From contig NZ_RJJE01000017.1 in the NCBI RefSeq assembly GCF_003721565.1, positions 186,001-250,000 on the forward strand: DNA of 64,000 bases, given 5' to 3'. This document shows, in pieces, positions 35,941 to 61,178 of the stretch (positions are counted from its first letter, which is position 1; each line of letters begins with the position of its first letter). The position numbers and the translations under genes were made by a program. The notes below the pieces were generated by a model, which had not been told where the DNA came from, ran no database searches, and was given only the letters and a program-made list of their open reading frames with translations. This DNA is from Rufibacter immobilis. Lineage in GTDB: Bacteria > Bacteroidota > Bacteroidia > Cytophagales > Hymenobacteraceae.

Positions 35941-36017
35941 CCAGAATTCTATTACGCTTAAACTTATATACCTAAACCTTAAAAGACACTATCCCCTTAC
36001 TACATCTACCGCTGCAT

Positions 36018-36452: not shown

Positions 36453-36521
36453 GGAAGGGCCCTATTGCTACCCCTTCCGCCGCCCATAATCCCTTTTACA
36501 AGCTACACCCTTTCTTTTCCC

Positions 36522-37934
36522 ATGCTTCACCGCAACTTTAAAACAATTACCCATTTATTGTTAGTGGCTCTGCTTGCCTCAGCAGTTTCCTGCATGCCTC
36601 TCTTCAACAAGTCTATGGAGACCTCCCGGGCATCTCTGGGGGTTGCCGCCCCAGGCAATGAGAATCTGGTGAATATGCCGCCGCCGCAGCAGAAAATTGT
36701 GGCAGCCGTGTATAAATTCAGAGACCAGACCGGGCAGTATAAACCCTCGGCTACCGGGGCCAACTGGTCTACGGCCGTAACGCAGGGTTCTACCACCATC
36801 CTGCTGAAATCTTTGGAAGAATCTGGTTGGTTTACCCCCATTGAGCGGGAGAACCTGGCAAACCTCCTCAATGAACGGAAGATAGTGCGCTCCACCCGCG
36901 CCGAGGCCGAAGCGGCCACTGGTAGGAAAGAACCGGCGCTGCCCTCGTTGTTGTTTGCGGGCATCCTTTTGGAAGGCGGTATTATTTCCTATGATGCCAA
37001 CGTGATCACCGGTGGGGCGGGTTTGCGCTACTTCAGTGCCGGTGGGTCTGGGCAGTACCGCGAGGACAAAGTGACCGTGTACCTCAGGGCCATCTCCACC
37101 AGCACCGGCGAGATTCTCAAGACAGTATACACTACCAAGACCATTCTCTCCCAGTCGGTGGATTTTGGTTTGTTCCGGTATGTCAAGTTCAAGCGGCTGC
37201 TGGAGGCCGAAACAGGGTTCACCTATAATGAGCCCTCTGAAATGGCCGTGAAGGAAGCCATTGACAAAGCAGTGCAAAGCCTCATCATTGAAGGAATCCA
37301 TGCCGGGTATTGGGGCCTCAAGAACAAGGATGACATGCAGTCTCCTATTATTAAGGAGTACCAGCGGGAAAGAGAGGATGTGAAGAACACCAACGTGCAC
37401 GGCGAAGTCATGGCTAACAGAAGAGGTGTGGTGGGCGTGTCCATCGCCGGGGGCGGAATGTATTATAACGGGGACTATTCACGTGCCCAGGTGGAGCCCA
37501 TGGCCGAGATAGGAGTCAGAGTCAGTACCCATAACAACCTGGGTTTTGATTTTAGGCTGGGGCGGGGAGACCTTTCCACTTCCCGTGAATTCTTTCACCG
37601 TACCCTCAGCTATGCAGAACTGAACCTGAATTACAACTTTGCTCCTAAACTGCGGCACACGCCGTATGTGCAGATTGGCGGTGGTGCCGCGGTGGTGCAA
37701 CGCGACGGTGGTACCCTTCTGGATGGGTTTGGCTCTGCTGGTTTTGACTCCTATATTAAAGGAGGACTTGGGTACGAATACCTGATTACTCCGCGCATAG
37801 GCATAGATATAAACGCCTCTAGTTCCTATTTCCTGAATGACGAGGTAGATGGAGTAAAGCAAGGCCGGTTCAATGACTATTTCTGGACTGCCAAAGTGGG
37901 CGTCAATTTCTATCTGGGGCTCTTTAAGAAATAA
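36522..37934 (+). CDS. csgG: CsgG curli secretion channel with C-terminal barrel-like domain
   Basis: 470 residues from the ATG at 36522 (MLHRNFKTITH); the earlier frame begins only with TTG. The lipobox region is SAVSC. The CsgG domain (about residues 40-275) is recognisable from KIVAAVYKFRDQTGQYK, STAVTQGSTTILLKSLEESGWF, ERENLANLLNERKIVRS and ALPSLLFAGILLEGGIISYD. E. coli CsgG ends near residue 277. Here about 170 more residues (303-470) alternate hydrophobic and polar like a small outer-membrane barrel (GVSIAGGGMYYNG, NNLGFDFRLG, YVQIGGGAAVV, GLGYEYLITPRIGIDI) and end VGVNFYLGLFKK. The CsgG call is firm; the fold of the extension is inferred. Confidence 0.92.
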   Translation: MLHRNFKTITHLLLVALLASAVSCMPLFNKSMETSRASLGVAAPGNENLVNMPPPQQKIVAAVYKFRDQTGQYKPSATGANWSTAVTQGSTTILLKSLEESGWFTPIERENLANLLNERKIVRSTRAEAEAATGRKEPALPSLLFAGILLEGGIISYDANVITGGAGLRYFSAGGSGQYREDKVTVYLRAISTSTGEILKTVYTTKTILSQSVDFGLFRYVKFKRLLEAETGFTYNEPSEMAVKEAIDKAVQSLIIEGIHAGYWGLKNKDDMQSPIIKEYQREREDVKNTNVHGEVMANRRGVVGVSIAGGGMYYNGDYSRAQVEPMAEIGVRVSTHNNLGFDFRLGRGDLSTSREFFHRTLSYAELNLNYNFAPKLRHTPYVQIGGGAAVVQRDGGTLLDGFGSAGFDSYIKGGLGYEYLITPRIGIDINASSSYFLNDEVDGVKQGRFNDYFWTAKVGVNFYLGLFKK

Positions 37935-37950
37935 GTAGTATCCCTCAATT

Positions 37951-38002
37951 CACCAAAACCAGAAGGGCCGCGCTTGCATGTGCGGCCCTTCTGGTTTTGG
38001 TG
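37951..38002 (+). terminator. Terminator after csgG
   Basis: A 21-bp stem (CACCAAAACCAGAAGGGCCG plus C, and its complement) with a 10-nt loop, 16 nt after the csgG stop. Confidence 0.8.
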
Positions 38003-38034
38003 TGCTACATAATTTGTTTGCTGTTCCTGTAAGT

Positions 38035-38088
38035 GGCATTTCTGTTTAGGGGCTCTTTTCGCGAAAAGAGCCCCTAAACAGAAATGCC
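38035..38088 (+). repeat. Class A element A8, perfect 54-nt palindrome
   Basis: The core at 38044-38079 has left half GTTTAGGGGCTCTTTTCG, and its right half is the exact complement. Nine private flanking pairs (GGCATTTCT) also match exactly. There is no unpaired loop. Confidence 0.95.
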
Positions 38089-38399
38089 TGGCTGGTGGAG
38101 GTGCGTGGTGCAAGCTCCCCAGGCAGTTATTTCCCCTAAACAAGCATAGCTTTTAATCAAGACAGTAAAGAAGCAATAACCATTCATAACCCAAAAACTA
38201 GACAAAGAGAATTAGAAAGCTAATTTAGAATCTTTATAAATTATTGAGAATTATTTGTGTTTTGTAAAACATAATAGGATTATTTTAAAAATAGAATGCA
38301 TAAATATAGATTTAAGCTCTTTTTTGGTATAATTATATCATAAAGTGAAATAGTATAAAAAATTAATGTATCATTTGTATGTTTTTTATTTTTTATTGA
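38089..38399. other. Very AT-rich leader region of the curlin genes
   Basis: About 310 bp without a gene, with long A/T runs. It separates the csgEFG assembly genes from the curlin genes and likely holds their control sites. Confidence 0.5.
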
Positions 38400-38407
38400 T
38401 ACATTTG
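38374..38407 (+). promoter_or_regulatory. Candidate promoter for the first curlin gene
   Basis: TACATTTG at 38400-38407 fits the Bacteroidota -7 consensus TAnnTTTG; TTTG at 38374-38377 could be the -33 box, with a 22-nt spacer that is slightly long. The start ATG is 48 nt downstream. Confidence 0.4.
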
Positions 38408-38454
38408 ACCTACAAATCAATCACATCTATCTTAAACCACTAAAACACAAACCA

Positions 38455-39258
38455 ATGAAAAAATCTATCCTTCTATCCGCCGCCGTAATGTTTGCAGCTG
38501 GTACAGCTATGGCACAAAGCAACGTGAGCACCGTGAGCCAGTCTGGTGATTCTCATTTAGCCGATGTGCTCCAGTTGGGAAGCACCAACTCTTCAACCGT
38601 AACGCAGTCAGATTTCGCTAACTGGGCATTTGTAACCCAGGTAGGATCTACTAACTACTCTGCTATTACCCAGGTGAACAACTCTCAGATCAACACCGCT
38701 GAAGTATATCAGGAAGGCGATGGCAACTATTCAACCCAAGACCAGAGCAATGGTAGCCTTGCTAACAATGCCCTAACTGTGCAGTTGGGTAATGATAACA
38801 CAGGTGTTCAGGTGCAGAGCAATACATCTGTGTTTAACAACGCTTATATCTACCAGTCAGGCGATGGTAACGTGGCCCAGCAGCTGCAAGACCAGGTGTC
38901 TGGTTACAACATTGCTGAAATTGAGCAATTTGGTTCTGATAACACTGCGCAGCAGTGGCAAGGGTTGAGCAGTGCTGATAACACTGCCTATGCCATGCAA
39001 AGCGGTACTGGTAACACCTCTGTTCAAATTCAGGATGAGGCCCTGGGTCTGTTTGGTTACAACTATGCAGAAGTAATGCAGTACGGTTCTTACAATGATG
39101 GTACTCAGTTACAGAGCGGTGCGGCTGACGTATCAGCTATCTTGTATCAAAGCGGAACTATGAACATGTCACTTCAAGAGCAAACTGGAACCTTTCACCA
39201 GTCTTCTGTAAGACAAATTGGTTCTTTCAACGAAGCTACTGTAGTACAAGGCAACTAG
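38455..39258 (+). CDS. Curlin repeat protein (major curlin candidate 1)
   Basis: 267 residues with a signal peptide (MKKSILLSAAVMFAAGTAMAQ). The rest is about 10-11 tandem repeats of some 22-24 residues following the curlin pattern Q-x-G-x-x-N-x-A-x-x-x-Q, e.g. YQSGDGNVAQQLQ, EQFGSDNTAQQWQ, MQSGTGNTSVQIQ, YQSGTMNMSLQEQ. Gln and Asn ladders of this kind stack into the beta-solenoid of curli amyloid. It is about twice the length of E. coli CsgA (five repeats). It would leave through CsgG. It has its own candidate promoter and is followed by a hairpin before the second curlin gene. Confidence 0.9.
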   Translation: MKKSILLSAAVMFAAGTAMAQSNVSTVSQSGDSHLADVLQLGSTNSSTVTQSDFANWAFVTQVGSTNYSAITQVNNSQINTAEVYQEGDGNYSTQDQSNGSLANNALTVQLGNDNTGVQVQSNTSVFNNAYIYQSGDGNVAQQLQDQVSGYNIAEIEQFGSDNTAQQWQGLSSADNTAYAMQSGTGNTSVQIQDEALGLFGYNYAEVMQYGSYNDGTQLQSGAADVSAILYQSGTMNMSLQEQTGTFHQSSVRQIGSFNEATVVQGN

Positions 39259-39340
39259 TAACCTAGAGGCGGGGGTGTTGAATTTCCGCCTCAGTTGCTG
39301 TAGAAGTACTTTAAATACCTTTTCTTTTACTTATGAAGAT

Positions 39341-39368
39341 GATAATGGGAGAAACCTCTCCCATTATC
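39341..39368 (+). terminator. Terminator/attenuator between the two curlin genes
   Basis: Stem GATAATGGGAGA / TCTCCCATTATC with a short loop, then ATTTTTT. The T tract ends about 13 nt before the next ATG, so it could set the ratio of the two curlins. A second, weaker GC stem (GAGGCGG / CCGCCTC) lies just after the first curlin stop near 39266. Confidence 0.7.
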
Positions 39369-39388
39369 ATTTTTTAACAAACAGACCA

Positions 39389-40330
39389 ATGAAAAAAGTA
39401 ACTGTATTTGCGGCTGCATTAGTTTTTGCCGCCGGGGCCGCTATGGCGCAGGGCAATACCAGCACTGTAAACCAAACCGGAGAGGAACATCGCGCCGAAG
39501 TTCAACAGACTGGCGCTGCCAATAGCTCGGCTGTCACTCAGACCGACCTTTCCAACTGGGGCTTCGTGACGCAAACCGGGAACACCAACGTTTCCAGGGT
39601 TGAACAAGTGGCTGGTGCTGCTTATAATACCGCCTATCTGTTCCAGACCGGAGATGCCAACACCTCGTCCATCTCGCAGTCTGATGTTTCTGAGGGTAAC
39701 TTGGCCTATGTAAGGCAAACCGGTACGGGTAACGCCTCTACGGTAGTGCAAGACATGGCCGCTTACGCTAACATAGCGGAAGCGTGGCAAATAGGTAATG
39801 CAAACAGCGCCAGCCAGGAACAAAGCGGCGAAAGCGAATCAAATGAGATGTACGTTGAGCAAAGCGGTAACCGCAACATGGCGCAGCAATACCAGGGGGG
39901 CGTTTCGTTGGCTAACACTGCCTACATCTACCAGTGGGGAGATAATAACATGGCCGTACAGAGCCAGGACGAGGTTTCAGGCTATAACAGCGCCATCGCC
40001 AGCCAAGACGGTAACAATAACTTAGCAGAACAGTACCAGGGCTTTTCCAGCGTGGCCAACACCGCCGACATCATGCAGAACGGTGACGGCAACATGGCGT
40101 TCCAAAGCCAGGATGACTTGAGTTATTATGAGAACTTTGCCGGCATCCAGCAATTCGGCTCAGATAACGAAGGTGCTCAGTACCAAAACACAGGCGGAGA
40201 TCTGTATTCTACCTTGTACCAAGATGGTAGCCTTAACTCCTCACTGCAGAGACAGACTGGCCAGAGCCACAGTTCTGTGGTGAATCAGATTGGTTCCTTG
40301 AACACCTCTACCGTTATTCAGGGCAACTAA
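39389..40330 (+). CDS. Curlin repeat protein (major curlin candidate 2)
   Basis: 313 residues from the ATG at 39389 (MKKVTVFAAALVFAAGAAMAQ); the longer frame runs through the hairpin and is not real. The mature part has about 12 curlin repeats, e.g. VNQTGEEHRAEVQQ, FQTGDANTSSISQ, RQTGTGNASTVVQ, WQIGNANSASQEQ, YQWGDNNMAVQSQ, QQFGSDNEGAQYQ. It is a paralog of the gene before it, with the same N- and C-terminal patterns (both end with VxQGN). It has about two more repeats. The two may copolymerise or be used in different conditions. Confidence 0.9.
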   Translation: MKKVTVFAAALVFAAGAAMAQGNTSTVNQTGEEHRAEVQQTGAANSSAVTQTDLSNWGFVTQTGNTNVSRVEQVAGAAYNTAYLFQTGDANTSSISQSDVSEGNLAYVRQTGTGNASTVVQDMAAYANIAEAWQIGNANSASQEQSGESESNEMYVEQSGNRNMAQQYQGGVSLANTAYIYQWGDNNMAVQSQDEVSGYNSAIASQDGNNNLAEQYQGFSSVANTADIMQNGDGNMAFQSQDDLSYYENFAGIQQFGSDNEGAQYQNTGGDLYSTLYQDGSLNSSLQRQTGQSHSSVVNQIGSLNTSTVIQGN

Positions 40331-40381
40331 GCGTAACAATAGCAAAGGTGCTTAAGCAATTTGCACTGGCAGAAGTCTAAC

Positions 40382-40415
40382 AGTTGGAAAGGAAGCAGTA
40401 GCCTCCTTTCCAACT
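40382..40415 (+). terminator. Terminator after the second curlin gene
   Basis: Stem AGTTGGAAAGGA / TCCTTTCCAACT with a 10-nt loop, then TCTTCTGTTTT. Confidence 0.75.
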
Positions 40416-40449
40416 TCTTCTGTTTTAATTTAGCAGGCGTAGTTTGTGC

Positions 40450-40484
40450 GTTTAGCGGCTCTTTTTCCAAAATGGACGTAAAAC
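40450..40484 (+). repeat. Class B element B7
   Basis: A 35-nt copy (GTTTAGCGGCTCTTTTTCC ... GACGTAAAAC) in the 352-bp gap before the CsgB-like gene. Apart from this and the terminator I see nothing in that gap. Confidence 0.75.
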
Positions 40485-40682
40485 TGGAACAGAGCCTACT
40501 TAAAGTGCGATTGATTTTTCCGGGGTAAAGGGCTATCTTAACGTTTGTCAGTTGTTACATGATGAAACTATAACCTGAGGCAACTCTGCTAGCCAGAAAA
40601 AGTGTTGCTTGTGCCTGAATGTTACAAAGTGAAGGAGGTTAAGCGTGGATCTATCCCCGCTTGTCACAATCTGCCAAAGAAG

Positions 40683-41216
40683 ATGAAAATGAAAAAGCTA
40701 GTTTTATTTCTGTTGTTCGCCCTGGGCGGATCATCTGCCTTCGCCCAGACAACCATTGCCGAAGAACTGCTCCTGAAGCAGGTAAACGAAGAGAAGAACT
40801 ATATTCGGCAGAACCTCAACCAAACCTCGGCCGCCAACGGAGGGCTCACGTTCCAGCAATTGGCTTCCAATGTGGCCCGTGTCCAGCAGGAGGGGGAGCA
40901 GAACGTGGCAATGCTTCAGCAGTACGGAGTGGGCAATGTGGTGAACTTACAGCAGCAAGGCAGCGGAAACAGCTATGAGGGCTATGTGTCTGGCAACTAC
41001 AACGTGAGCGATCTCTACCAGATTGGCAACGCCAACAGAATTGAGCAGGACCTGCAAACCAACAACCAGAATTATGTGATCAGGCAGCAGGGTTCGGGCA
41101 ATGTACTCACCCAAATAGAAATGGGCAGCAACGCTAAATCCTATAGCGTTGAACAATTAGGAAATGACATGAAAATCACCATTGTCAACGGTGGTGCCAC
41201 GGTACCTTTCCAGTAA
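40683..41216 (+). CDS. CsgB-like minor curlin
   Basis: 177 residues from the ATG at 40683 (MKMKKLVLFLLFALGG), giving a signal peptide ending SAFAQ; the longer frame has no signal. After a helical start (EELLLKQVNEEKNYIRQNLNQ) come about five imperfect repeats: VQQEGEQNVAMLQ, QQYGVGNVVNLQ, YQIGNANRIEQD, RQQGSGNVLTQIE, VEQLGNDMKITIV. The short length, degenerate repeats and charged last repeat resemble CsgB, the nucleator that anchors the fibre through CsgF. The nucleator role is inferred; a minor structural curlin is the alternative. Confidence 0.78.
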   Translation: MKMKKLVLFLLFALGGSSAFAQTTIAEELLLKQVNEEKNYIRQNLNQTSAANGGLTFQQLASNVARVQQEGEQNVAMLQQYGVGNVVNLQQQGSGNSYEGYVSGNYNVSDLYQIGNANRIEQDLQTNNQNYVIRQQGSGNVLTQIEMGSNAKSYSVEQLGNDMKITIVNGGATVPFQ

Positions 41217-46639: not shown

Positions 46640-47554
46640 ATGACACAAAACATCTGGAAATATTTTGGCGGGTTGGGCTTTATTGCCCTCACCCTCAACC
46701 TCTGCAGTCAGCAGCCTTTCTACCAGAGCACCGCTACGGGGGAGGCGGGGGCGGGTTTCGCGGCGCGTGAAGCGATCAAGAGTCCGGCGCTGCCAACGGC
46801 CATCTCCTTTGCCGGTGAGCCGGTTCCGCTGGAGGTGCCCGATGTGGCAGAACGCCTGGACCGAGAGCTGCTGGTCAACTCGTACCTGCACGCCACCACG
46901 CTCCTGGGCCTCAAACGCATGCAGCGGTACCTGCCCGAGATTGAGCGCCTGCTAAAGGAAAACGACATTCCCGCCGATTTTGTGTATCTGTCTCTGGCCG
47001 AGAGTCTGTTCAGTCAGGTGACTTCGCCGGCCGGGGCTTCGGGTTTTTGGCAGCTCATGCCAGACACGGCCCGCGGCTACGGCCTCCTGGTGAACGCCGA
47101 GGTAGACGAACGGTACCACGTGGAGAAAGCCACCAAGGCCGCTTGCCGGTACCTCAAATCTGCGAAGAAAAAATTCGGGTCCTGGACCAATGCCGCCGCC
47201 TCGTACAACCGGGGCATGAACGGGCTGGACCGGGCGCTGGAGCAGCAGAAAGTAAGCTCGTTCTATGACCTGTACCTGAACGACGAGACTTCCCGGTACA
47301 TTTTCCGGATCCTGGCCCTGAAAGAAGTGCTGGGCAATCCGCAGAAATACGGTTTTGATTTGCCTAAGGAGCAGGGGTATGATGTTTTGCCTACCCGTAC
47401 GTTCAAAGTGACATCCTCCATTCCAGACCTGCCCGCGTTTGCCCTTCAGCAGGAAACCAATTACAAAACGCTTCGGCTGTACAACCCCTGGATCAAAGGC
47501 TATAAACTCACGGTGCCCCCGGGCAAGGAATTTGAATTGCTCCTGCCCAAATAG
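46640..47554 (+). CDS. Lytic transglycosylase, SLT domain
   Basis: 304 residues with an N-terminal hydrophobic export signal (about residues 6-22). The lysozyme-like SLT domain (about 95-240) has the catalytic Glu in LSLAESLFSQ, then SPAGASGFWQLMPDTARGYGL, ATKAACRYLKSAKKKFGSW and AAASYNRGMNGL. The C-terminal part (TYRTFKVTSSIPDLPAFALQQ-like region) ends in a short binding module. Such enzymes cut peptidoglycan between MurNAc and GlcNAc to form anhydro-MurNAc. Unusually for this window the start has a strong Shine-Dalgarno sequence, AAGGAGGAAGT, directly before the ATG. Confidence 0.88.
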   Translation: MTQNIWKYFGGLGFIALTLNLCSQQPFYQSTATGEAGAGFAAREAIKSPALPTAISFAGEPVPLEVPDVAERLDRELLVNSYLHATTLLGLKRMQRYLPEIERLLKENDIPADFVYLSLAESLFSQVTSPAGASGFWQLMPDTARGYGLLVNAEVDERYHVEKATKAACRYLKSAKKKFGSWTNAAASYNRGMNGLDRALEQQKVSSFYDLYLNDETSRYIFRILALKEVLGNPQKYGFDLPKEQGYDVLPTRTFKVTSSIPDLPAFALQQETNYKTLRLYNPWIKGYKLTVPPGKEFELLLPK

Positions 47555-47578
47555 AAACCAAGAAGTACATAAAAACTA

Positions 47579-47626
47579 AAATGCGTTTAGGGGCCGTTTT
47601 TCCAAAAACGGCCCCTAAACGCATTT
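47579..47626 (+). repeat. Class A palindromic element A10
   Basis: Core 47585-47620, CC centre, six private pairs (AAATGC). It lies between convergent genes, 24 nt after the transglycosylase stop and 19 nt from the SpoIIAA-like stop. Confidence 0.9.
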
Positions 47627-47644
47627 ACCGGTGGCACCTCTCGC

Positions 47645-48001
47645 TTATTGAGTGACCCACAGCATGGCTTGCGCGCTTTCTTCAGCGGGAAAGAACCTGA
47701 CCTGCGCCGAGGTGAAAGGCTTCAAGGCTTGGGTCATCCAATCTTCCCACTTCTGGTCACCCACAATGGCTACTTTCTGAAAGCTGTTGGCGTGGGTTAC
47801 GTCAAATTTGATGTCTTGCCAGAAGCCCGCGGGCTCCCAACCGTCAAAGTTGGTCATCTCCCAGTACAGGTTGATTTTGCCGTGCTGTTTAATCTTGGCC
47901 TCCAGGGCCGGAAGCAACTGGTCATAGTCTGCTTTATCTAACGTTCCGGTTGCCTTCACGGCAAACAGGTCTGAATTTTCAGTTTCAACGGTCTGTATCA
48001 T
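47645..48001 (-). CDS. SpoIIAA-like (STAS/SEC14-type) small protein
   Basis: 118 residues from the ATG at 48001 (MIQTVETENSD); the longer frame runs into the gene before. The pattern FAVKATGTLDKADYDQLLPALEAKI, INLYWEMTNFDGW, WQDIKFDVTHANSFQKVAIVGD and WEDWMTQALKPF is that of the SpoIIAA-like STAS-fold family, in which no enzymatic role is established. It is cytoplasmic. It lies 107 nt downstream of the amidotransferase gene on the same strand and may be the third gene of that operon. Confidence 0.8.
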   Translation of the reverse strand: MIQTVETENSDLFAVKATGTLDKADYDQLLPALEAKIKQHGKINLYWEMTNFDGWEPAGFWQDIKFDVTHANSFQKVAIVGDQKWEDWMTQALKPFTSAQVRFFPAEESAQAMLWVTQ

Positions 48002-48108
48002 AGTGTTTGAGTTCTTGCCTTCTTTACGGCAGGTGGTTCTGGCGAGTTGGATGACGTCAACTACAGGCAAGGTGGCTACTCTATAAGCTATTTCATCTTC
48101 TTCCAGCA

Positions 48109-49065
48109 CTACCCCTGTTGCCGGATGGCTGCTTCTTCTTGCTGTTCAATGGCTTCCAGTTGGCTGTCTCTGGGGCTGTTGAGCGCTTCCTGCATGTCGG
48201 GTCCTTCTATCTGTTCCTGTACTTCCCTCGCTTTCCAGACCAAGGCCTTAAAGATGCGGCGCTGCTCGCGGTGCTGGGGGAGGTACTCAGGGTGCCACTG
48301 CACACCAATCATGAAGTCCTGCTGCGTATGTTCAATGGCCTGCACCACCTGGTTTGCTTCCTGGGCTACAATGGCAATGCCATTGCCGGGTGTATGTACT
48401 GCCTGGTGGTGCAGCGCATTTACCCTAAGCTGTGGTACGCCTACCACCTGCGCCAGTTGGGAGCCGGGTTTCAGCGTTACCGTTTTCACCGGGAAGATGC
48501 TGGAGGGGTTGGGTTCCTCGCGGTAAAAGGTGCCAATGTCTTGGTAAAGGGTGCCTCTGAAGTAGACATTCATGAGCTGCGAGCCCCGGCAGATGCCCAG
48601 TACCGGGAGGTTTTTCTTTACCGCCTGATGAATGAGCTGAAACTCCAGATGGTCCCGGTCCCGGTCTATGTGCCACTGGGGCTTTCGGCTGAAAACTTTG
48701 CGTACGAAGAACAACGCCGGATAGTAGAACCACCGGGTAAAACGGCTGATGCGCTGAAAAAGGTTTTTCCGGGGATGCTTTAAAGTGCGTTGCAGGTACT
48801 CGTTTAACACATGTTCCTGCTGGTATACTGCTGGGTCAATATCGGCCCCGCCGCCCACAATAAGCCCCTGCAGGCCGTCGGCGGTGCGGGGGCTCGAAGG
48901 GGTGATGCGCACGGGTTTGCCTCCCGCCAGCAGCACGCCCAGCGCCGTGAAGAGCCATGCAGCGCCACCACCCCGGTCTGGACCGGTAACGCCAATGGTG
49001 GGCCGGCCTCTGTTAATGCGGTATTTTTTCGTTAAGAGTGCCACTGTTCTATCTGTTGAATCCAT
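48109..49065 (-). CDS. Class I glutamine amidotransferase-like peptidase (C26 / PuuD-like)
   Basis: 318 residues. The class I glutamine-amidotransferase triad is readable: Cys in LPVLGICRGSQLMNV, and His/Glu in IGVQWHPEYL. GLIVGGGADIDP is the oxyanion-side motif. Free-standing members hydrolyse gamma-glutamyl amides (for example gamma-glutamyl-GABA). An insertion of about 50 residues after the ADIDP motif (YNEYLQRTLKHPRKNLFQRISRF-like, basic and aromatic) is longer than in PuuD. Its start overlaps the end of the amidoligase gene by 34 bp, so the two proteins are made together. It may remove or trim what the ligase adds; that is inference. Confidence 0.87.
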   Translation of the reverse strand: MDSTDRTVALLTKKYRINRGRPTIGVTGPDRGGGAAWLFTALGVLLAGGKPVRITPSSPRTADGLQGLIVGGGADIDPAVYQQEHVLNEYLQRTLKHPRKNLFQRISRFTRWFYYPALFFVRKVFSRKPQWHIDRDRDHLEFQLIHQAVKKNLPVLGICRGSQLMNVYFRGTLYQDIGTFYREEPNPSSIFPVKTVTLKPGSQLAQVVGVPQLRVNALHHQAVHTPGNGIAIVAQEANQVVQAIEHTQQDFMIGVQWHPEYLPQHREQRRIFKALVWKAREVQEQIEGPDMQEALNSPRDSQLEAIEQQEEAAIRQQG

Positions 49066-50039
49066 TTCTCGTCAAAGCCCAGCAGGGTCTCTTTTTTAAG
49101 CGTGAGGTGCGCTTGGCTCAAGAGGTTGATCTGATCTGGGGCATTGGCTAGTTCCTCTATGCTTACCCAATTGTTCCATTCATGGGACAGCCTCCAGTCT
49201 GGGTCTGAGATACGGCTGTTGGGCAAGCGGTAATGGAATGTATTTCTGGCTTTCACGCTGCCCAGGTTGGTATAGCCATTTACTTTCTCCGCGTTCAGAA
49301 AGGCCAGCACAGGGTATAAATCCAAAGGCCTATTACGGTCAGGGTTGTACCGGTGGTAGTCGTCAATGAACGTGTCCAGGTCTGGGGCATAGGCGGGGGC
49401 TAGAACCAGCGCTGTATACTCTGCCGGATATGGATTGATAAAAGAGGTCATGCGCAAGCGGGCGAAATCCGTTTTCCCCACCTTGAGAAGCCAGGGGTAG
49501 AGCAGGAGAAAGGCGCGTAAATACCGTAGAATGGTGGAACAGTGCGTATCTGGCAGCTCAGGGTTGATATGGGTGCCAAACGCATTGGTCATGGAAGCCT
49601 CAGTGCCTTGGGCATGGTGCTCATACAAGGCCTGCCGCAGGTCTTCCAGTGGCTCTAGGTGGGTGCACGGCAAGGGAGGAGTGCCAATTTCATAGGGTAT
49701 CACCTGCCGGATCATAGCCTCCAGCGCGTTTTCCACCTTCTCCTCCAAGGTGGTTTGCCCTACCTTAATGCTCTCCAGGTCAATGTTGAGCCTGTCAAAA
49801 ATGTACTTGTATTTCTTTTCAGTTAGGAGCTTTAGGTCTATTTCAATAGAAAAATCGCCCAGCCTGGTATTGACCACTTTCTGTGAGAACCGGTGTTCCC
49901 TCTGGACGGTGCCGCCATACAGTTCCTGCACAATCTGGACGCACTCCTCTATTCCTACCTGGGAGAATTCCAGCTCAAAGCCCACCTTTCTAATCTCGCC
50001 CTGTGCATTATGTGTAATCGGGAGTTGTTTGAACTGCAT
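49032..50039 (-). CDS. Amidoligase family protein (predicted COOH-NH2 ligase)
   Basis: 335 residues from the ATG at 50039 (MQFKQLPITHN). The N-terminal motif KVGFELEFSQVG, with Glu-x-Glu, and the central MTNAFGTHINPELPD match the Amidoligase_2 group, distant relatives of gamma-glutamylcysteine synthetase and glutamine synthetase. Such proteins are predicted to join a carboxyl to an amine using ATP, with metal bound by the acidic residues. Substrates are not known for most. As I recall, comparative work has noted these next to glutamine-amidotransferase-like genes, as here. It is the first gene of a minus-strand operon. Confidence 0.82.
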   Translation of the reverse strand: MQFKQLPITHNAQGEIRKVGFELEFSQVGIEECVQIVQELYGGTVQREHRFSQKVVNTRLGDFSIEIDLKLLTEKKYKYIFDRLNIDLESIKVGQTTLEEKVENALEAMIRQVIPYEIGTPPLPCTHLEPLEDLRQALYEHHAQGTEASMTNAFGTHINPELPDTHCSTILRYLRAFLLLYPWLLKVGKTDFARLRMTSFINPYPAEYTALVLAPAYAPDLDTFIDDYHRYNPDRNRPLDLYPVLAFLNAEKVNGYTNLGSVKARNTFHYRLPNSRISDPDWRLSHEWNNWVSIEELANAPDQINLLSQAHLTLKKETLLGFDEKWIQQIEQWHS

Positions 50040-50273
50040 ATTTAAAACTTTAAAGCTCAGATATTTGCAAACGGAGTTTGGGAGAGCGTGTTGCAGCCCA
50101 ATACAGAAACAAGGGCAAATCTGGATGAAACGCTGGCTCATTGGCCCAAACTAATGCGCTACCAGAAGAGAATAGTGCCACCACAGGCAAGTAGAATGCA
50201 CGATGCACTTATTAATGGGGTAGAAACTTAAAAGCAGATTCCGTACCTTGATTCTTTCTTTTACTGGAGTAGT

Positions 50274-51638
50274 ATGGCTAAAAAAGTCTTTGTTTCACTT
50301 GCCCTGGCTTTTGCCGGTGGAGTGGTTGTGTCAAAAATCATGGCTGCCAGGCGCCAGGCAAAAGAAGCCGCAACAACAGGCGATAGGCTAACCAACTGGG
50401 CGGGTAACCTTACTTACAGCACGCCCCAAATCTTTTTTCCAGCCACGGTGGAAGAAGTGCGGTCTATTGTCAGAAGATGCGCTAAACTACGGGCGCTGGG
50501 CTCCAGGCACTCCTTCAACACCATCGCTGACAGTGAAGAAAACCTGATTTCTCTCCAGAACCTGAACAAAGTAGTGGCGCTGGATAAAACAGCCCAGACG
50601 GTAACGGTTGAGGCCGGAATGCGTTACGGCGAGCTGGCCGAGTTTCTGCACGGGGAGGGTTATGCGTTGCCCAACATGGCTTCGCTGCCGCACATCACGG
50701 TGGTAGGGGCTTGCACCACGGCCACCCATGGGTCAGGCATACAGAATGGCAATTTGGCTACTTCCGTCTCAGCGTTGGAGTTTGTGAATGCTGCGGGCGA
50801 GTTGGTGACCATGTCGCGTAAGGAAGATGGAGATGTTTTCAAAGGAGCGGTGGTGGCGCTGGGGGGATTGGGTGTAGTGACCAAAATCACGCTCGATCTG
50901 GTGCCAGCATTTAACATGACCCAGATAGTGTACCGCAACTTGCCCATGCGCGCCCTCAAAGATCATTTTGAGGAAATCATGTCTGCAGGCTACAGCGTGA
51001 GTTTGTTCACCCATTGGCAAGACCAGAATATTAATCAGGTCTGGATCAAAAGCAAAGCAGAAGGCAAGGTGTCCGGTACGTTGACTCCCGATTTTTTCGG
51101 GGCGACACCTGCCAGCCTCAAGTTACATCCCATAGAAGACCAATCGCCGGTGAATGCCACAGACCAGTTGGGCAAAGTAGGCCGATGGTATGAGCGATTG
51201 CCGCATTTCAAGATGGGCTTCAAACCCAGTGCCGGCGCTGAGCTGCAGAGTGAATACTTTGTACCCTTTAGGTATGCCTATGAAGCCATGACGGCCATTG
51301 AGTCTTTGCACCAACAGATAGCGCCCCACTTGTTTGTCTCTGAGATAAGAGCCATACAGGCCGATGATCTGTGGCTGAGTCCGCAGTACAAGCAAACTAC
51401 CGTGGCGTTTCATTTCACCTGGAAGCAGGACGTGGCCGCGGTCATGCAACTTTTGCCATTACTGGAGGAAAAGCTGGAGCCTTTTGAGGTTCGTCCGCAT
51501 TGGGGCAAGCTTTTCACTATGGCCCCAAAAGCGTTGCAGGCACGGTATGAGCGCCTGGAGGATTTCAAGCAGCTGCTGCAACAGCACGATCCGGAAGGCA
51601 AGTTCAGAAATAAATTCCTGGCCCATTATCTGTATTAG
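50274..51638 (+). CDS. FAD-dependent sugar-lactone / alditol oxidase family protein
   Basis: 454 residues. The N-terminal hydrophobic stretch (FVSLALAFAGGVVVSKIMAA, about 5-24) looks like a signal anchor. The FAD-binding (VAO/PCMH) domain follows, with the putative FAD-linking His in ALGSRHSFN, then VEAGMRYGELAEFLHGEGYALPN, ATHGSGIQNGNLATSV and ALGGLGVVTKITLDLVP. The C-terminal part matches the arabinono-lactone oxidase domain (SEIRAIQADDLWLSP; VRPHWGKLF). Relatives oxidise L-gulono- or arabinono-lactones or alditols such as xylitol. Substrate is not decidable; xylitol or arabinitol would suit the pentose-rich setting, but the gene is not next to the xylan cluster. Confidence 0.85.
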   Translation: MAKKVFVSLALAFAGGVVVSKIMAARRQAKEAATTGDRLTNWAGNLTYSTPQIFFPATVEEVRSIVRRCAKLRALGSRHSFNTIADSEENLISLQNLNKVVALDKTAQTVTVEAGMRYGELAEFLHGEGYALPNMASLPHITVVGACTTATHGSGIQNGNLATSVSALEFVNAAGELVTMSRKEDGDVFKGAVVALGGLGVVTKITLDLVPAFNMTQIVYRNLPMRALKDHFEEIMSAGYSVSLFTHWQDQNINQVWIKSKAEGKVSGTLTPDFFGATPASLKLHPIEDQSPVNATDQLGKVGRWYERLPHFKMGFKPSAGAELQSEYFVPFRYAYEAMTAIESLHQQIAPHLFVSEIRAIQADDLWLSPQYKQTTVAFHFTWKQDVAAVMQLLPLLEEKLEPFEVRPHWGKLFTMAPKALQARYERLEDFKQLLQQHDPEGKFRNKFLAHYLY

Positions 51639-53309: not shown

Positions 53310-54140
53310 TCACTTCCGTTGCCTTTTCTGCATGGGCTGTGGACTGAAGAAATGGTTGAGGGGGCCGTGGCCTTCACCGGTTTTCACATCTTTGCCTTGA
53401 TCAATGGCCTGGTACACGTAGTGGCGGGCGTGCAGTATTGCCTCAACCGTAGGGAATCCCTGGGCTAAATAGGCCGCAATGGCCGAGGAGAGGGTACAGC
53501 CGGTACCGTGGGTGTTCTGGCTTTGAATGGCGGCAGACTCGTACACGTGCCCTTCACCTTGCCGCGGAAGGTACACATCAAAAAGCCTGGCCCCCTTCAA
53601 ATGACCTCCTTTGAGTAGCACTGAGCGGCACCCGGTGTGTAGAAGCTCTTGGGCGGCCGCCTGCATTTCTTCCACGTTTTGGATGGACATTCCCGTCAGA
53701 AGCTGGGCTTCATCCAGATTGGGGGTAATCACCAGGGCCAGCGGGAAAAGTTCCTGCTGCAGTAGTGCGATGGTCTCCTCTTTGATGAGCGGATCACCGC
53801 TGCTGGCTACCATAACCGGGTCTATCACCACGGGAACCTGGTATTGTTTCAGTTGTGCGGCAATGGCCAGGACTAGCTCCGGGCTGTGCACCATCCCAAT
53901 CTTGATGGCGGCGGGCTTTATGTCGTCCATGACGGCCTTGATCTGGCCTTGCACAACAGACGCAGGAATGCTGTGGATTCCTGTGACACCGCGGGTGTTC
54001 TGTACGGTGACCGCCGTAATGGCCGAGGTCCCGAAGCAACCCAGCGCGGAAAAGGTTTTCAAATCGGCCTGAATGCCGGCTCCGCCGCCGCTGTCTGAGC
54101 CGGCAATGGTGAGCACGGCAGGGTATTGATAGGTTGTCAT
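53310..54140 (-). CDS. thiD: Hydroxymethylpyrimidine (phosphate) kinase
   Basis: 276 residues from the ATG at 54140 (MTTYQYPAVLTIAGSD); the longer frame reads through the riboswitch leader. Ribokinase-fold motifs: AGSDSGGGAGIQADLKTF at the N-terminus, PVVIDPVMVASSGDPL, ITPNLDEAQLLTG, and the anion-hole GTGCTLSSAIAAYLA near the C-terminus. ThiD phosphorylates HMP to HMP-PP for thiamine phosphate synthesis. A TPP riboswitch lies 180 bp upstream, so the gene is turned down when thiamine diphosphate is plentiful. It is separate from the main thi operon. Confidence 0.95.
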   Translation of the reverse strand: MTTYQYPAVLTIAGSDSGGGAGIQADLKTFSALGCFGTSAITAVTVQNTRGVTGIHSIPASVVQGQIKAVMDDIKPAAIKIGMVHSPELVLAIAAQLKQYQVPVVIDPVMVASSGDPLIKEETIALLQQELFPLALVITPNLDEAQLLTGMSIQNVEEMQAAAQELLHTGCRSVLLKGGHLKGARLFDVYLPRQGEGHVYESAAIQSQNTHGTGCTLSSAIAAYLAQGFPTVEAILHARHYVYQAIDQGKDVKTGEGHGPLNHFFSPQPMQKRQRK

Positions 54141-54320
54141 AAGCTTTCTCACGTCAGATCCTGAGTTTCCCGGCCGCTCAGGCAGAATCACGTCGCGTAT
54201 GTGCGCAGACTGATCCAGATGAGTACCCGTTTGGGTGGGCGGCAAGGATGTGGCTCAGGAGCCTTCGGAGAGGAGGTAGAATTGAAAAGAGAGAAGGCTT
54301 GCAAAAGTGCTTCCGTGCTT

Positions 54321-54393
54321 TTCCCTACGCCAGTATGACCTGGATCAGGTTCAAAGGGTACTGTCTCAGCTCCTGTGTAGGAACGCCCCTAAA
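54321..54393 (-). ncRNA. TPP riboswitch (thiD leader)
   Basis: Read on the minus strand it has the THI-box signature: GGGGCG, GCTGAGACAGTACCC, TTTGAACCTGATCC, then the paired turn and GGCGTAGGGAA. It lies 180 bp upstream of thiD. Confidence 0.93.
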
Positions 54394-54643
54394 GCCGCTT
54401 CTAAGGTAGTGAATATTTTCTTCAAATGAGACACCTATGGTAGGGAATCCTCTGAGACTCCTGTTCGTCCTTGCTTTTCCGTTTAGGGGCTGCTTTTCTA
54501 AAATAAGCCCCTAAACGGAAAGGCGAGGAATATTATACATGAGCTTTCATCCTTCTGTATTTCAGTGGATTGGGGTAATGTGTCTTATGGCTATTCTTAC
54601 TTCTGGCCTCAATGAAGTATCTTGATCGCCTATAGCCACAGCC
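54394..54643. other. Divergent region between thiD riboswitch and TenI-like gene
   Basis: 250 bp holding A12 and presumably both promoters. No gene. Confidence 0.45.
54474..54523. repeat. Class A palindromic element A12
   Basis: Core 54481-54516 with CT centre and one internal mismatch, plus seven private pairs including a wobble. It is the only class A copy not downstream of a gene: both neighbours point away. Confidence 0.85.
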
Positions 54644-55270
54644 ATGTCTTTCCATCCGTTTCAGATTGTTGTTGTTACGCCAGATATTCCTTTGCAGAAG
54701 CAGGCAGGTTTTTGGCGGCCTCTGTTAGAAGCCGGGGCAGATTACCTGTATCTGCGGAGCCCCATAGTGTTGCCTGAAGAGAAAGTGCTCCTGAGAAATC
54801 TTTTAGATCATGGGTATGCTGACCGTTTGATTCTACCGATGGCTTCCGCCGGAGAGTTAGGGCCTGGTGGAGCAGGTTACCGGCATGTAAAGGAATGGGA
54901 GCGGATAAACCATGAGCAGGAATATAAGCCAGGAGTGGTCTATTCTACCTCAGTGCATGCCCTGGCAGACCTGCCCCATTTACAAGCTGTGTTTAAGATG
55001 GTTTTTTACAGTCCGCTGTTTCCCAGCATCAGCAAGGAAGGATACAGACCAAGCGCAGAGCTGTCCGTGATTCAAGAAGAATGGCAAGCACTGAAGGCTC
55101 AAACAACTTCTTTACCGAAAGTGATAGGTCTAGGCGGAATCACCGCGGCTAATATTCTTCAGGTAAAGCAAGCCGGTTTTGATGGGGCCGCTTTGCTGGG
55201 AGCTGTTTGGCAGGCCCCTGATCCGGTGCACGCGCTGCGCTCCATCAAAGCGGCGCTAACGGAGGTTTAA
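54644..55270 (+). CDS. Thiamine phosphate synthase family protein (TenI/ThiE-like)
   Basis: 208 residues with the ThiE/TenI barrel pattern, e.g. IVVVTPDIPLQKQAGFW, EAGADYLYLRSP, VVYSTSVHALADL, FYSPLFPSISKEGY, VIGLGGITAANILQVKQAGFDGAALLGAVW. It lacks the ThiE phosphate and pyrimidine motifs seen in the other copy at 58440, so it is more likely TenI-like (thiazole tautomerase) than a true synthase. It is on the opposite strand to the thi operon, and its last 15 bp overlap the end of thiF. Confidence 0.8.
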   Translation: MSFHPFQIVVVTPDIPLQKQAGFWRPLLEAGADYLYLRSPIVLPEEKVLLRNLLDHGYADRLILPMASAGELGPGGAGYRHVKEWERINHEQEYKPGVVYSTSVHALADLPHLQAVFKMVFYSPLFPSISKEGYRPSAELSVIQEEWQALKAQTTSLPKVIGLGGITAANILQVKQAGFDGAALLGAVWQAPDPVHALRSIKAALTEV

Positions 55271-56359
55271 ACCGCTTACCTTCTCAAACTGCTCCGGCGT
55301 TAAGGCGTTCAGGCCACCGGTTAGGTTATACAGGTTCGTAAATCCGTTTTTCTGCAAGATCTGGCAGGCCTTCCTGCTTCGCAGGCCGCTCTGGCAATGC
55401 ACCAGCAAGGGTAAGCCAGTGCCAATCAAATGCCACTTCTCCTCTAATGACGATAACGGGAATAACTGCCCGCCAATGTTTTGCCGCTGGTACTCGTCTT
55501 CCTCCCTAACATCTAAAACAGTAAAAGTTTCGCCCCTATTTAACCTGCTCAGGAACTCAGTAAAAGCAATTTCCTGAATAGGTACATCACATAGCAGGGT
55601 ATGCTGGGGTAGTTCTTGGATGTTCAGGTTATCCGGATTTAAACCGAAAACATAGGTGTTAAACTGAAGGGTAAGCGCATGAAGAAGTAGAAGCTTTCCT
55701 GTGGCCACCTCACCGATGCCTGTAATTACTTTGATGGCTTCATTGGCCATAAGGCAACCCACTAAACCAGGCAAAACCCCCAGCACCCCCACTTCTGAGC
55801 AGGAGGCCAGGTCGCTGGCCTCGGGGTACAGGCAGCGGTAAGTTGGGCCGCCCCGGTAATTGAAGACGCTTACCTGCCCCTCAAACTTGAAAATAGAACC
55901 AAAGACCAGCGGCTTGTGCAGCATCACGCAGGCATCATTGACCAGATATCTGGTAGTGAAGTTATCTGAACCGTCTATTACCAGATCATACTCGCGCATG
56001 ATTTTTAGTGCATTCTGGGATTGAAGCTGAACCGGGTGGCTAATGATAGAGATATAGGGATTCTGCGCCAGCAGCCTTTCTTTGGCGGCATCGGCCTTTA
56101 AGCTGCCTACATCTGAGGTGGAGAAGAGAATCTGCCGTTGCAGATTGCTTTCCTCTACCCGGTCAAAATCAATAATGCCTAGGGTACCCACTCCGGCTGC
56201 CGCCAGATACTGTAACACCGGGCAGCCCAGGCCGCCCGCCCCAATGACCAGCACTTTGGCGGCTTTCAGTTTCTGCTGGCCCGCCAAACCAATCTCCGGC
56301 AAGATCAGGTGACGGGAGTAGCGGTTGGTTTCTTCAGGGGTGAGTGTTGCGGCAGACAT
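55256..56359 (-). CDS. thiF: ThiF/MoeB-type adenylyltransferase with rhodanese domain
   Basis: 367 residues. The E1-like domain (about 10-245) has the ATP-binding VLVIGAGGLGCPVLQYLAAAGVG, the Arg-finger region ESNLQRQILF, DLVIDGSDNFTTRYLVND and the Cys in SCSEVGVLGVLPG (about 187) that may accept sulfur. The C-terminal rhodanese domain (about 262-360) has active-site Cys in HCQSGLRSRKAC (about 322). It would adenylate ThiS and pass sulfur to it; a MoeB role in molybdopterin is the alternative. Odd: MoeB-type zinc ligands are missing. The usual CxxC is TYRC, and no second CxxC is present. Last gene of the thi operon. Confidence 0.88.
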   Translation of the reverse strand: MSAATLTPEETNRYSRHLILPEIGLAGQQKLKAAKVLVIGAGGLGCPVLQYLAAAGVGTLGIIDFDRVEESNLQRQILFSTSDVGSLKADAAKERLLAQNPYISIISHPVQLQSQNALKIMREYDLVIDGSDNFTTRYLVNDACVMLHKPLVFGSIFKFEGQVSVFNYRGGPTYRCLYPEASDLASCSEVGVLGVLPGLVGCLMANEAIKVITGIGEVATGKLLLLHALTLQFNTYVFGLNPDNLNIQELPQHTLLCDVPIQEIAFTEFLSRLNRGETFTVLDVREEDEYQRQNIGGQLFPLSSLEEKWHLIGTGLPLLVHCQSGLRSRKACQILQKNGFTNLYNLTGGLNALTPEQFEKVSGLNLR

Positions 56360-56368
56360 AAATCTAGA

Positions 56369-57502
56369 TTACTTTACTTGAAAGGAACGGTCCCAGTCTT
56401 TCCAGACAGGCTCATAGCCTTGGCGGCGAATCATTTGGGCAATTTCCTGGGGTGAGCGTTCATCAGAGATCTCAAACTGCTCCAGTGATTGTGGCTCCAC
56501 GGCATAGCCGCCGGGGTTAGTTTTGGAACCTGCGCTAATGCTGGTGATCCCCAGTTTGATGACATGGTCACGGAAGCGTTCACTTTCGCGGGTGGAGAGG
56601 GAGAGTTCCACTTCTTCTTTCAGCAGACGGTAAGCGCAGATCAATTGCACCAGTTCCTTGTCCGTCATGTAGGTGTTGAAACTCTTCAAAGCGCTTTGTT
56701 CTGAGGTGCCTACCTCAATAGGCCTTAGCCGGGGGAAAGAGATGCTGTACTTTGTCTGCCAATAGGTTTTCTCCAGATAGTCCAGGTGCAGGGCGGTGTA
56801 GAAGCAGTCGGTGCGCCAGTCTTCCAGGCCTATGAGTACACCAAGCCCCATTTTGTAGATTCCTGCTTTGCCTAAGCGGTCTGGCGTACTGAGCCGGTAA
56901 GAAAAGTTTGACTTCTTGCCTTTGGGGTGATGCAGCTTGTAGTTCTCCTGGTGGTAGGTTTCCTGGTACACCAGCACCGTATGCAGCCCTGCCTCCATGA
57001 GCACTTCATACGCATCCTGATCCAGTGGCTGCACCTCCATGGAAATATGCGCGAAATGAGGCCTGATCAGTTCAATGGCATTCTTCAGGTAAGGAACGCC
57101 TACGGTGTGGTTGGCTTCGCCCGTCACCAGCAACACATGATCATAGCCCATCTCCTTCAGTACCGCTACCTCTTGCAGAATCTCAGTATCGGTGAGGGTG
57201 CGGCGCGGGATCTTATTGTCCAGGCTGAAGGCGCAGTAAGTGCAGATATTCTGGCATTCATTGGAAAGGTAAAGGGGCGCGTACATCTGTAAAGTTTTCC
57301 CAAACCGTTTTTGGGTTGCCAGGTGGCTCAGCTGGGCCATCTGCTCCAGGTAAGTCAAGGCGGCAGGGGAAACCAGCGCCTTAAAGTCCTCCAAAGAGCG
57401 TTTAGGTTTAAGCAAAGCACGTTCTACATCTGCGGCGGTTTTGCTGTAGATGCTGCGCTTCACCTCATCCCAGGAGTATTGATGAAAAACTGATTCAAAC
57501 AC
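56369..57502 (-). CDS. thiH: 2-iminoacetate synthase (radical SAM)
   Basis: 377 residues. The radical-SAM cluster motif is NECQNICTYCAFS (CxxxCxxC, about residue 82-90). It splits tyrosine to dehydroglycine for thiazole formation. Start is GTG at 57502: an in-frame stop lies just upstream, so no ATG is possible. Other family blocks are HVLLVTGEANHTVGVPYL, METVLVYQETYH-like (LHTVLVYQETYHQENY) and SAGSKTNPGGY. Use of ThiH rather than the oxygen-dependent ThiO implies some low-oxygen or protected operation. thiF follows 9 nt later. Confidence 0.95.
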   Translation of the reverse strand: MFESVFHQYSWDEVKRSIYSKTAADVERALLKPKRSLEDFKALVSPAALTYLEQMAQLSHLATQKRFGKTLQMYAPLYLSNECQNICTYCAFSLDNKIPRRTLTDTEILQEVAVLKEMGYDHVLLVTGEANHTVGVPYLKNAIELIRPHFAHISMEVQPLDQDAYEVLMEAGLHTVLVYQETYHQENYKLHHPKGKKSNFSYRLSTPDRLGKAGIYKMGLGVLIGLEDWRTDCFYTALHLDYLEKTYWQTKYSISFPRLRPIEVGTSEQSALKSFNTYMTDKELVQLICAYRLLKEEVELSLSTRESERFRDHVIKLGITSISAGSKTNPGGYAVEPQSLEQFEISDERSPQEIAQMIRRQGYEPVWKDWDRSFQVK

Positions 57503-57510
57503 AGACTTTT

Positions 57511-57544
57511 AATTAAGAATTAGGAATTAGAAATTAAGAATTAA
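57511..57544. repeat. Short AT-rich tandem repeat
   Basis: AATTAAGAATTAGGAATT then AGAAATTAAGAATTAAG: about four copies of a 7-9 nt ATTAAGA/ATTAGGA unit just upstream of thiH, in the 162-bp gap to thiG. Confidence 0.6.
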
Positions 57545-57664
57545 GGCAGTACCTTTTGAGCTAGATGAGTCAAACTATCTGTGGTATGTCCCCCTTCAAA
57601 GGAGGACGGAATGCGTGCAGATCTAAACCACATCTAAACTCTGCTTCTAATTCAGGGCTTTTGA

Positions 57665-58438
57665 TTAATCAAGAAATGCAGTTAAAGGACTGCTGGCTTC
57701 GGCATGGGAGCGGGGTTGGGCTAGCTTGGCCTCGTAAGCCATTCTTCCGGCCTCCACGGCCAGTTTAAAGGCCTGCGCCATTTTAACAGGGTCTTCAGAT
57801 ACGGCAATGGCTGTGTTCACCAGTACAGCATCTGCGCCTAGTTCCATGGCTTCTGCGGCGTGGGAGGGAGCGCCAATGCCGGCGTCTACCACCACGGGTA
57901 TTTTGCTTTGCTCAATGATGATTTCCAGCAGATCACGGGTGCGCAGGCCTTTGTTGGAGCCGATGGGGGCACCCAAAGGCATTACCGCTGCGGTGCCGGC
58001 TTCCTCCAGATGCTTGCAAAGAACCGGGTCCGCGTGGATGTAGGGCAGCACAATGAAGTCCAGCTTTACCAGTTCTTCGGCGGCTTTGAGGGTTTCAATA
58101 GGGTCTGGTAACAGGTACTTAGGGTCTGGATGGATTTCCAGTTTCAGCCAGTTGGTCTCCAGAGCCTCACGGGCAAGTTGCGCCGCAAAGATGGCTTCTT
58201 TGGCGGTGCGAACGCCGGAGGTGTTGGGCAGCAAGTTAAACTGCGCATGGGACAGATGGCTGAGGATATCATCCTGGTCGTCGGCCAGGTCTACTCTTTT
58301 AAGAGCCACGGTGACCAGCTCAGAACCAGAAGCCAACAGAGCTTCCTGCATGGTGGCCGAGGAATGAAACTTGCCCGTTCCCGTAAACAGGCGGGACTGG
58401 AACGTTTTATCTGCTATGGTAAGGGGAGAAGAGAACAT
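57665..58438 (-). CDS. thiG: Thiazole synthase
   Basis: 257 residues from the ATG at 58438 ([24 protein letters not shown]); the longer frame overlaps thiE in another frame. ThiG features are LFTGTGKF, the Schiff-base Lys in [23 protein letters not shown], and the phosphate-binding [32 protein letters not shown]. It joins dehydroglycine, DXP and ThiS-carried sulfur into the thiazole. Only one base separates its start from the thiE stop. Confidence 0.96.
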
Positions 58439-58439
58439 C

Positions 58440-59096
58440 TTACGCTTGTGTGAATGGGTGAGTAGTAGTTGATTCTTCCAAAGCTTGCCACAACGCCTGC
58501 ACAGCTGCGGCCGCGTTATCGCTTTTGTTGATGACCGAGGATACCGCAATACCGTGCAGACCCGCTGCGAGCAAATCAGGGACATCTGCGGCGGTTACCC
58601 CGCCAATGGCAAGGAGGGGCTGCGTAATTCCGGCTGCGCGGCACCGGGAAATAATCTTCTGATAGCCTTCTAAGCCCAAAATTGGGCTCAGCTTCTCTTT
58701 GGTGCTGGTAAACCGGAAGGGCCCTACCCCAACGTAGTCAACGCCGGCCGCCGCATGCATCTGAATATCTTCGAAGGTGTTGGCTGTACCGCCAATGATC
58801 ATACCTGGGCCAAGTTGCTTCCGGGCTTCCTTAGTAGACATATCCTGTAAGCCAAGGTGTATACCGTCTGCTCCAATTTCCTGCGCCAGGGCAACATTGT
58901 CATTGATGATCAGCTTGGCTCCGTAGTGTTGGCAAACTGCCTGTGTATCCAGGGCTTCCTGTCTCCAATGATCTGGGGAAACATTTTTTAGGCGCAGCTG
59001 AACCCAATGCACGCCTGCGGCACAGGCTCTGGCCGCTAACTGGGCATGCGTGTAGCCCGCAATATCTTGGGTGATGTAGTGAAGTCTGGAAATCAT
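58440..59096 (-). CDS. thiE: Thiamine phosphate synthase
   Basis: 218 residues with full ThiE motifs: [13 protein letters not shown] (pyrimidine site), [40 protein letters not shown] and [29 protein letters not shown] (phosphate). It couples HMP-PP with the thiazole phosphate. This copy, unlike the TenI-like gene at 54644, keeps all catalytic motifs. It lies about 200 bp after thiC, with A13 in that gap. Confidence 0.95.
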
Positions 59097-59225
59097 GGTC
59101 TAGTAAAAAGTGTCCCTTTAACGAAGGCAAAAGGAAATTTAGGTCATCTTCAGGATTGTCAATTTCAGGCGTGAGCGCTTGCTGGTGTTACTAGGTGTCT
59201 GAAAAGAAAGCGCTCTTCTGAGAGG

Positions 59226-59265
59226 CCGTTTAGGGGCTCTTTTTCCAAAAACAGCCCCTAAACGG
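59226..59265 (+). repeat. Class A palindromic element A13, inside the thi operon
   Basis: Core 59228-59263, CC centre, two private pairs. It lies 29 nt beyond the thiC stop and about 130 bp before thiE, so it is probably within the operon transcript. Its centre is opposite in sense to other copies after minus-strand genes. Confidence 0.88.
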
Positions 59266-59294
59266 TGATCTTGAAAACAGGCGTCTGCTACTCT

Positions 59295-61178
<1,884 letters not shown>

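Follow-up and report, generated by a model that had tools for sequence, protein, structure and literature searches.

Three genes lie next to one another on the minus strand of the window (the whole stretch of 64,000 nucleotides of Rufibacter immobilis DNA that was analysed), and a stem-loop follows the last of them:

49032..50039, minus strand: ligase gene, Amidoligase_2 family (PF12224), 335 aa, E 2e-57
49032..49065, minus strand: overlap of the 3' end of the ligase gene with the 5' end of the C26 gene, 34 nt
48109..49065, minus strand: C26 gene, Peptidase_C26 / class I glutamine-amidotransferase-like hydrolase, 318 aa, PF07722 E 5.1e-43
47645..48001, minus strand: third gene, SpoIIAA-like (PF11964), 118 aa, E 7.2e-32
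47579..47626: probable terminator, a perfect inverted repeat with a 22-pair stem in the fold and a T-rich tail on the minus strand

All three reading frames are open at these coordinates, and together with the Pfam matches they bear out the layout described in an initial annotation of this DNA, namely a ligase gene overlapping a C26 gene by 34 bp, with a SpoIIAA-like gene next. The start of the third gene was placed at the ATG at position 48001 because its relatives in five other genomes of the genus (one of them broken over two frames) align from that codon; it is separated from the stop codon of the C26 gene by a gap of 107 nt, without overlap. As no terminator-like site was found in this gap and the stem-loop 3' of the third gene is strong (z-score of -6.8 for a 101-nt stretch), transcripts of the pair may here read through into the third gene; the terminator is perhaps shared with a convergent transglycosylase gene. 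Searches of positions 47500-50400 returned no sigma-70-like promoter and zero matches to a Bacteroidota-type promoter pattern.

The ligase matches PF12224 with 195.3 bits (cut-off 22) over positions 2-244 of the 245-position profile, and E22, E24, D68, E117, N159, R235, D240, R265, H269 and R271 are invariant in 57 aligned rows. We take PF12224 ligases to have the glutamine-synthetase-like COOH-NH2 ligase fold, and family membership together with the conserved, largely charged residues predicts an ATP-dependent carboxylate-amine ligase. No PDB relative of the ligase was found, also when a profile of the 57 rows was used, and a structure prediction from three aligned sequences had a mean pLDDT of 41.1. 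The C26 protein matches PF07722 with 147.8 bits (cut-off 20.5), the best stretch covering profile positions 84-219 of 219, and GATase (PF00117) with 56.6 bits (E 3.5e-15). Its residues C159, H258 and E260, which we take to be the Cys-His-Glu triad, are invariant in 56 aligned rows, and the triad is intact. The closest solved relatives are Lin1909 (3fij), a 'probable glutamine amidotransferase' (7d4r, 7d50 and 7d53, presumably SpuA of Pseudomonas) and the gamma-glutamyl-GABA hydrolase PuuD (6vtv). The NCBI equivalog model for PuuD, NF008471, is widely missed (60.1 bits, cut-off 266), which rules out PuuD itself; the protein may work like PuuD, and it probably cuts gamma-glutamyl bonds. Its structure prediction (four aligned sequences) had a mean pLDDT of 36.4, and this model was, like that of the ligase, of insufficient quality for use. 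Proteins encoded by C26 genes paired with such ligases measure 301-325 aa in the window's family (33 measured) and 244-281 aa in the phylum sample (29 measured, one of them cut by a contig end).

We then surveyed how the two genes are arranged elsewhere by searching PF12224 in 395 genomes of the phylum (33 with a match) and 200 of the family (51 with a match). Neighbours were checked in 84 stretches, mostly of 13 kb (~6 kb on each side; the shortest was 7.9 kb), which comprised (i) 67 stretches, window included, with form A, a full-length PF12224 match of about 810-840 nt with a C26 partner, to which the window ligase belongs; (ii) 15 stretches with form B, a phage-type match of about 630 nt from the same taxonomic family with the C26 gene absent nearby; and (iii) two weak hits, partial matches of 24.8 and 22.2 bits (G353 and G070), which stand outside the 67. 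The length of the match served for the first assignment of form A, which tblastn with the window ligase then confirmed. One further family genome with a partial hit (G547) contributed no stretch to the 84 and is counted among the 163 family genomes described below.

A C26 gene adjoins the form A ligase in 64 of 67 Bacteroidota loci, window included, more often than chance would allow, and is found beside the ligase in none of the 17 other stretches (15 form B and the two weak hits). Of 61 pairs that were measured, again including the window, 59 have overlapping genes, the overlap lengths being approximate as starts were set by the longest open frame; three further pairs were detected by tblastn only. 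Of the three exceptions to adjacency, two genomes of the family sample (G501 and G523) carry a close C26 relative on a separate contig, with the ligase away from the contig end, and the third (G087) has the most distant ligase (38%) and an ordinary C26 protein only. Presence and absence across genomes follow the same pattern: in the family sample, a close C26 relative (E <= 1e-15) occurs in 37 of 200 genomes, exactly the 37 with form A, and the remaining 163 lack both (Fisher p 3.5e-41, relatedness ignored), 14 of these 163 having a form B or partial PF12224 hit. All 12 genomes inspected for more distant C26/GATase proteins contained such proteins. Similarly, in the phylum sample a strong C26 match (E of 3e-66 or better) accompanies form A in 30 of 31 genomes, G087 being the exception, and all other C26 matches from that search have E values of 5e-26 or worse and come, save for G087, from genomes without form A. 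Within the genus, 14 of 16 genomes hold the pair, and at three Rufibacter/Pontibacter loci the ligase is 70-73% identical to that of the window. Distances among the ligases track those among their partners (r 0.93, 49 pairs), which simple co-descent would produce as well; a correlation meant for flavo-type rows only was set aside because three rows of the window's family were among them. The ligase-amidotransferase pairing that the initial annotation had put forward is therefore strongly supported and occurs well beyond this genome, and because the two genes are nearly always together in the sampled bacteria, they probably work as one unit. In Rufibacter roseus (L034 / L146, G445) the ligase gene is broken into two overlapping frames, either by a genuine frameshift or through an error in sequencing, and the C26 gene is uninterrupted.

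The third gene behaves differently. The initial annotation had grouped it with the pair in one operon and a candidate pathway. In a pathway of this kind a carrier-like third protein would handle a nonpolar substrate or product; the common strand, the 107-nt gap and the terminator-like site found only after the third gene are what one would expect of such a unit. The protein itself is a clear family member (110.7 bits against PF11964, cut-off 25) and resembles in sequence two SpoIIAA-like proteins of Shewanella, 2ook (E 1.2e-17) and 2q3l (E 1e-13), which, in the accessible text of the structural report, are proposed either to carry nonpolar compounds or to act as interfacial enzymes, one of the folds having a nonpolar cavity (PMC2954212). 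That text associates the Shewanella proteins with a TonB receptor and with UspA proteins, and not with an amidoligase (PMC2954212). Yet the third gene lies near the ligase in only one of the 67 form A loci, that of the window. It is present in 6 of 16 genus genomes, i.e. in 5 of 15 besides the window's, and each of these five copies is either on a different contig from the ligase or hundreds of kb away from it; the pair is present in four of the five genomes (the ligase of G445 being split), and the fifth, G413, has form B only. The three-gene arrangement, as opposed to the pair, is thus peculiar to this genome among the sampled loci, and the gene's place in a conserved unit is not borne out. 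We reject it as a pathway member and regard a pathway of all three genes as very improbable; its position beside the pair looks like a local accident. No other gene beyond the pair was conserved across the sampled loci either, and a conserved wider neighbourhood was rejected, the clusters around the pair differing from genus to genus.

Outside Bacteroidota, tblastn located the ligase on 11 plasmid records, all alphaproteobacterial. A C26 gene is adjacent in three of the eight plasmid loci examined, all three from Rhodobacterales, and no C26 partner was found near the ligase in the other five by tblastn on all of them (one is unannotated). In a C26 tree of 42 rows, a branch with SH-aLRT 96 places 27 Bacteroidota and three Rhodobacterales partners in one group, split from 12 other C26 proteins. 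This tree came from a quick search and holds 27 of 53 Bacteroidota partners; its 12 ordinary rows, all from Bacteroidota, derive from 20 of ~104 weaker matches, eight of which gave no ORF by the motif filter. Some branches were flagged as long, two of which meet (one leads to the G087 protein), and with midpoint rooting the ordinary row on the longest branch (L256) takes the basal position on the partners' side. Within the limits that these long branches set, the split suggests that the pairing arose once, or that both genes were transferred together. In the ligase tree (32 of the 57 rows; the unannotated L158 is outside every alignment and tree), the three paired alphaproteobacterial ligases are not on one branch, and one of them (L155) groups with four lone ones (support 85), so that a loss, or a gain, of the C26 partner may have taken place inside this group.

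The plasmid location of the Rhodobacterales pairs and the patchy distribution raise the possibility that the pair travels as mobile or phage cargo and constitutes an auxiliary module akin to the amidoligase and amidotransferase genes of LUZ24-like phages. Form B indeed matches phage amidoligase families (phrog_2443 for the one member scanned), the window C26 protein matches a phage glutamine amidotransferase family (phrog_7218, E 2.3e-18), and Phage-ZRK32 is described, in the portion of the report available, as carrying an amidoligase together with a glutamine amidotransferase (PMC10945688). The window ligase, however, has no PHROG match at E <= 0.001 and no match among phage records, it matched zero viral contigs in a two-pattern scan, and a ligase relative accompanies C26 relatives in none of 80 viral loci (80 kept of 169). 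The likeness to LUZ24-like phages is also partial: according to the accessible text on UFV-P2, a PF12224 ligase lies near a glutamine amidotransferase gene, but the latter enzyme is of class II (GATase_6) rather than C26 and is joined by an ATP-grasp enzyme and a second ligase, whereas the window has C26 alone (PMC3890496). Given also the presence of the pair in 14 of 16 genus genomes, we disfavour a phage origin of the window pair and consider phage or mobile cargo very improbable. The form B genes of the window's family (L131-L145) are another matter. Two of the six neighbour types scanned at these loci gave weak head or portal PHROG matches, and with their phage amidoligase match these PF12224 genes look like prophage genes.

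The explanation that best accommodates the data is a two-gene module of a ligase and a matching gamma-glutamyl-type hydrolase, comparable to PuuA and PuuD, to which we assign a probability of roughly one half. In such a module the PF12224 ligase would spend ATP on coupling a carboxylate with an amine, the gamma-carboxyl of glutamate being the simplest choice of carboxylate, and its C26 partner would hydrolyse a gamma-glutamyl-type amide, so that the pair would add and remove (or proofread) a gamma-glutamyl group on some amine, as PuuA and PuuD do; the SpoIIAA-like gene would be a local neighbour, perhaps on the same transcript here. ATP use, glutamate as substrate, the direction of the cycle and physical contact between the two proteins are points that we infer. 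The resemblance to the Puu system lies in the combination of an amide ligase with a C26 hydrolase and in the fact that the C26 protein has PuuD as one of its closest solved relatives. It has limits, in that PuuA is a true glutamine synthetase homologue and not a PF12224 protein, the C26 protein falls below the PuuD cut-off, and genes resembling PuuB or PuuC are not conserved next to the two genes. An aldehyde dehydrogenase gene, expected of a Puu-like route, does lie directly upstream on the same strand at one Rhodobacterales locus, and a sister genus (g173) has, in 16 of its 21 form A genomes, a gamma-glutamyltranspeptidase-like gene that stands divergent beside the ligase (15 by gene calling plus L116, with one cluster member scanned), probably through one ancestral event. 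These neighbours are hints of gamma-glutamyl chemistry and are not decisive. In another genus (g96), a penicillin-amidase-like gene (one member scanned) is located immediately 5' of the ligase on the same strand at L042, L046, L049, L058 and L063, with gaps of 29-78 nt. The host genome encodes a GCS2-type ligase and a transpeptidase elsewhere, so that the pair does not appear tied to glutathione; the idea that the ligase replaces a missing glutamate-cysteine ligase was rejected for this genome, the GCS2 protein being present.

Several observations nonetheless count against such a cycle, namely the miss of NF008471, the lack of any conserved gene beyond the pair, the five of eight plasmid loci without C26 and the genome (G087) with an ordinary C26 protein only. 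Moreover, the gene overlap and the strict co-occurrence fit equally well with the two proteins being halves of one glutamine-dependent amidotransferase, in which C26 would free ammonia and the PF12224 enzyme would place it on a carboxylate with ATP. The near one-to-one co-occurrence, the separate C26 group and the match of the C26 protein to GATase all accord with this arrangement, and it has a parallel in MurT/GatD, where, according to the accessible text, neighbouring genes encode a ligase together with a class I amidotransferase-like protein (PMC5871853, PMC3267633); MurT, however, resembles Mur ligases (PMC5871853, PMC3267633), as opposed to the PF12224 and C26 combination of the window. 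Against ammonia feeding, the C26 score is far above the GATase score (147.8 versus 56.6 bits), a named gamma-glutamyl hydrolase is one of the solved proteins closest to C26, and there are loci with the ligase alone as well as genomes with both genes unlinked. On balance we favour the ligase-hydrolase cycle and regard the ammonia-feeding amidotransferase as possible but less probable. The broader proposal, a dedicated two-enzyme module of Bacteroidota and Rhodobacterales that would reversibly gamma-glutamylate (or amidate) some metabolite or protein, is one we put forward tentatively and think rather unlikely to hold in full.

Deposited annotations already set the two families side by side, with 'amidoligase family protein' or 'amidoligase enzyme' next to 'gamma-glutamyl-gamma-aminobutyrate hydrolase family protein' or 'type 1 glutamine amidotransferase', and a 2009 amidoligase survey by Iyer and colleagues is said to have probably noted or predicted ligase-amidotransferase pairs. 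The idea of the pairing is thus not new, and the co-occurrence numbers come from the present analysis; our literature search found no paper on an amidoligase-C26 pairing among the matches listed. The suggestion of an undescribed pathway in the initial annotation is accordingly fair as regards chemistry and substrate, and less so as regards the gene pair, which annotators had already juxtaposed. Amidoligases of phages and fungi are mentioned in the literature (PMC10945688, PMC3890496, PMC3158057, each in the text accessible), and the available portions of PMC10945688, PMC3890496, PMC2954212, PMC3158057 and PMC4431377 contain no tested activity of a PF12224 enzyme.

If the reversible two-enzyme module of the broader proposal proves true, it would be the first PF12224 pathway with a defined hydrolase partner. 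PF12224 enzymes occur in bacteria and phages, and a fixed partner across two phyla makes a good entry point, as the substrate range of the C26 partner would narrow what the ligase makes. Should the pair instead feed ammonia, it would represent a new fold pairing for glutamine-dependent amidation.

Two further loci of the window were noted in passing. Positions 35440-41216 on the plus strand hold a curli-like cluster of CsgE, CsgG and two curlin-repeat proteins, together with one more protein of similar look and without a Pfam match. Positions 53310-61166 hold a thiamine biosynthesis-like cluster, judged from the translations, of which two members were scanned, the TMP-TENI match being just below the cut-off.
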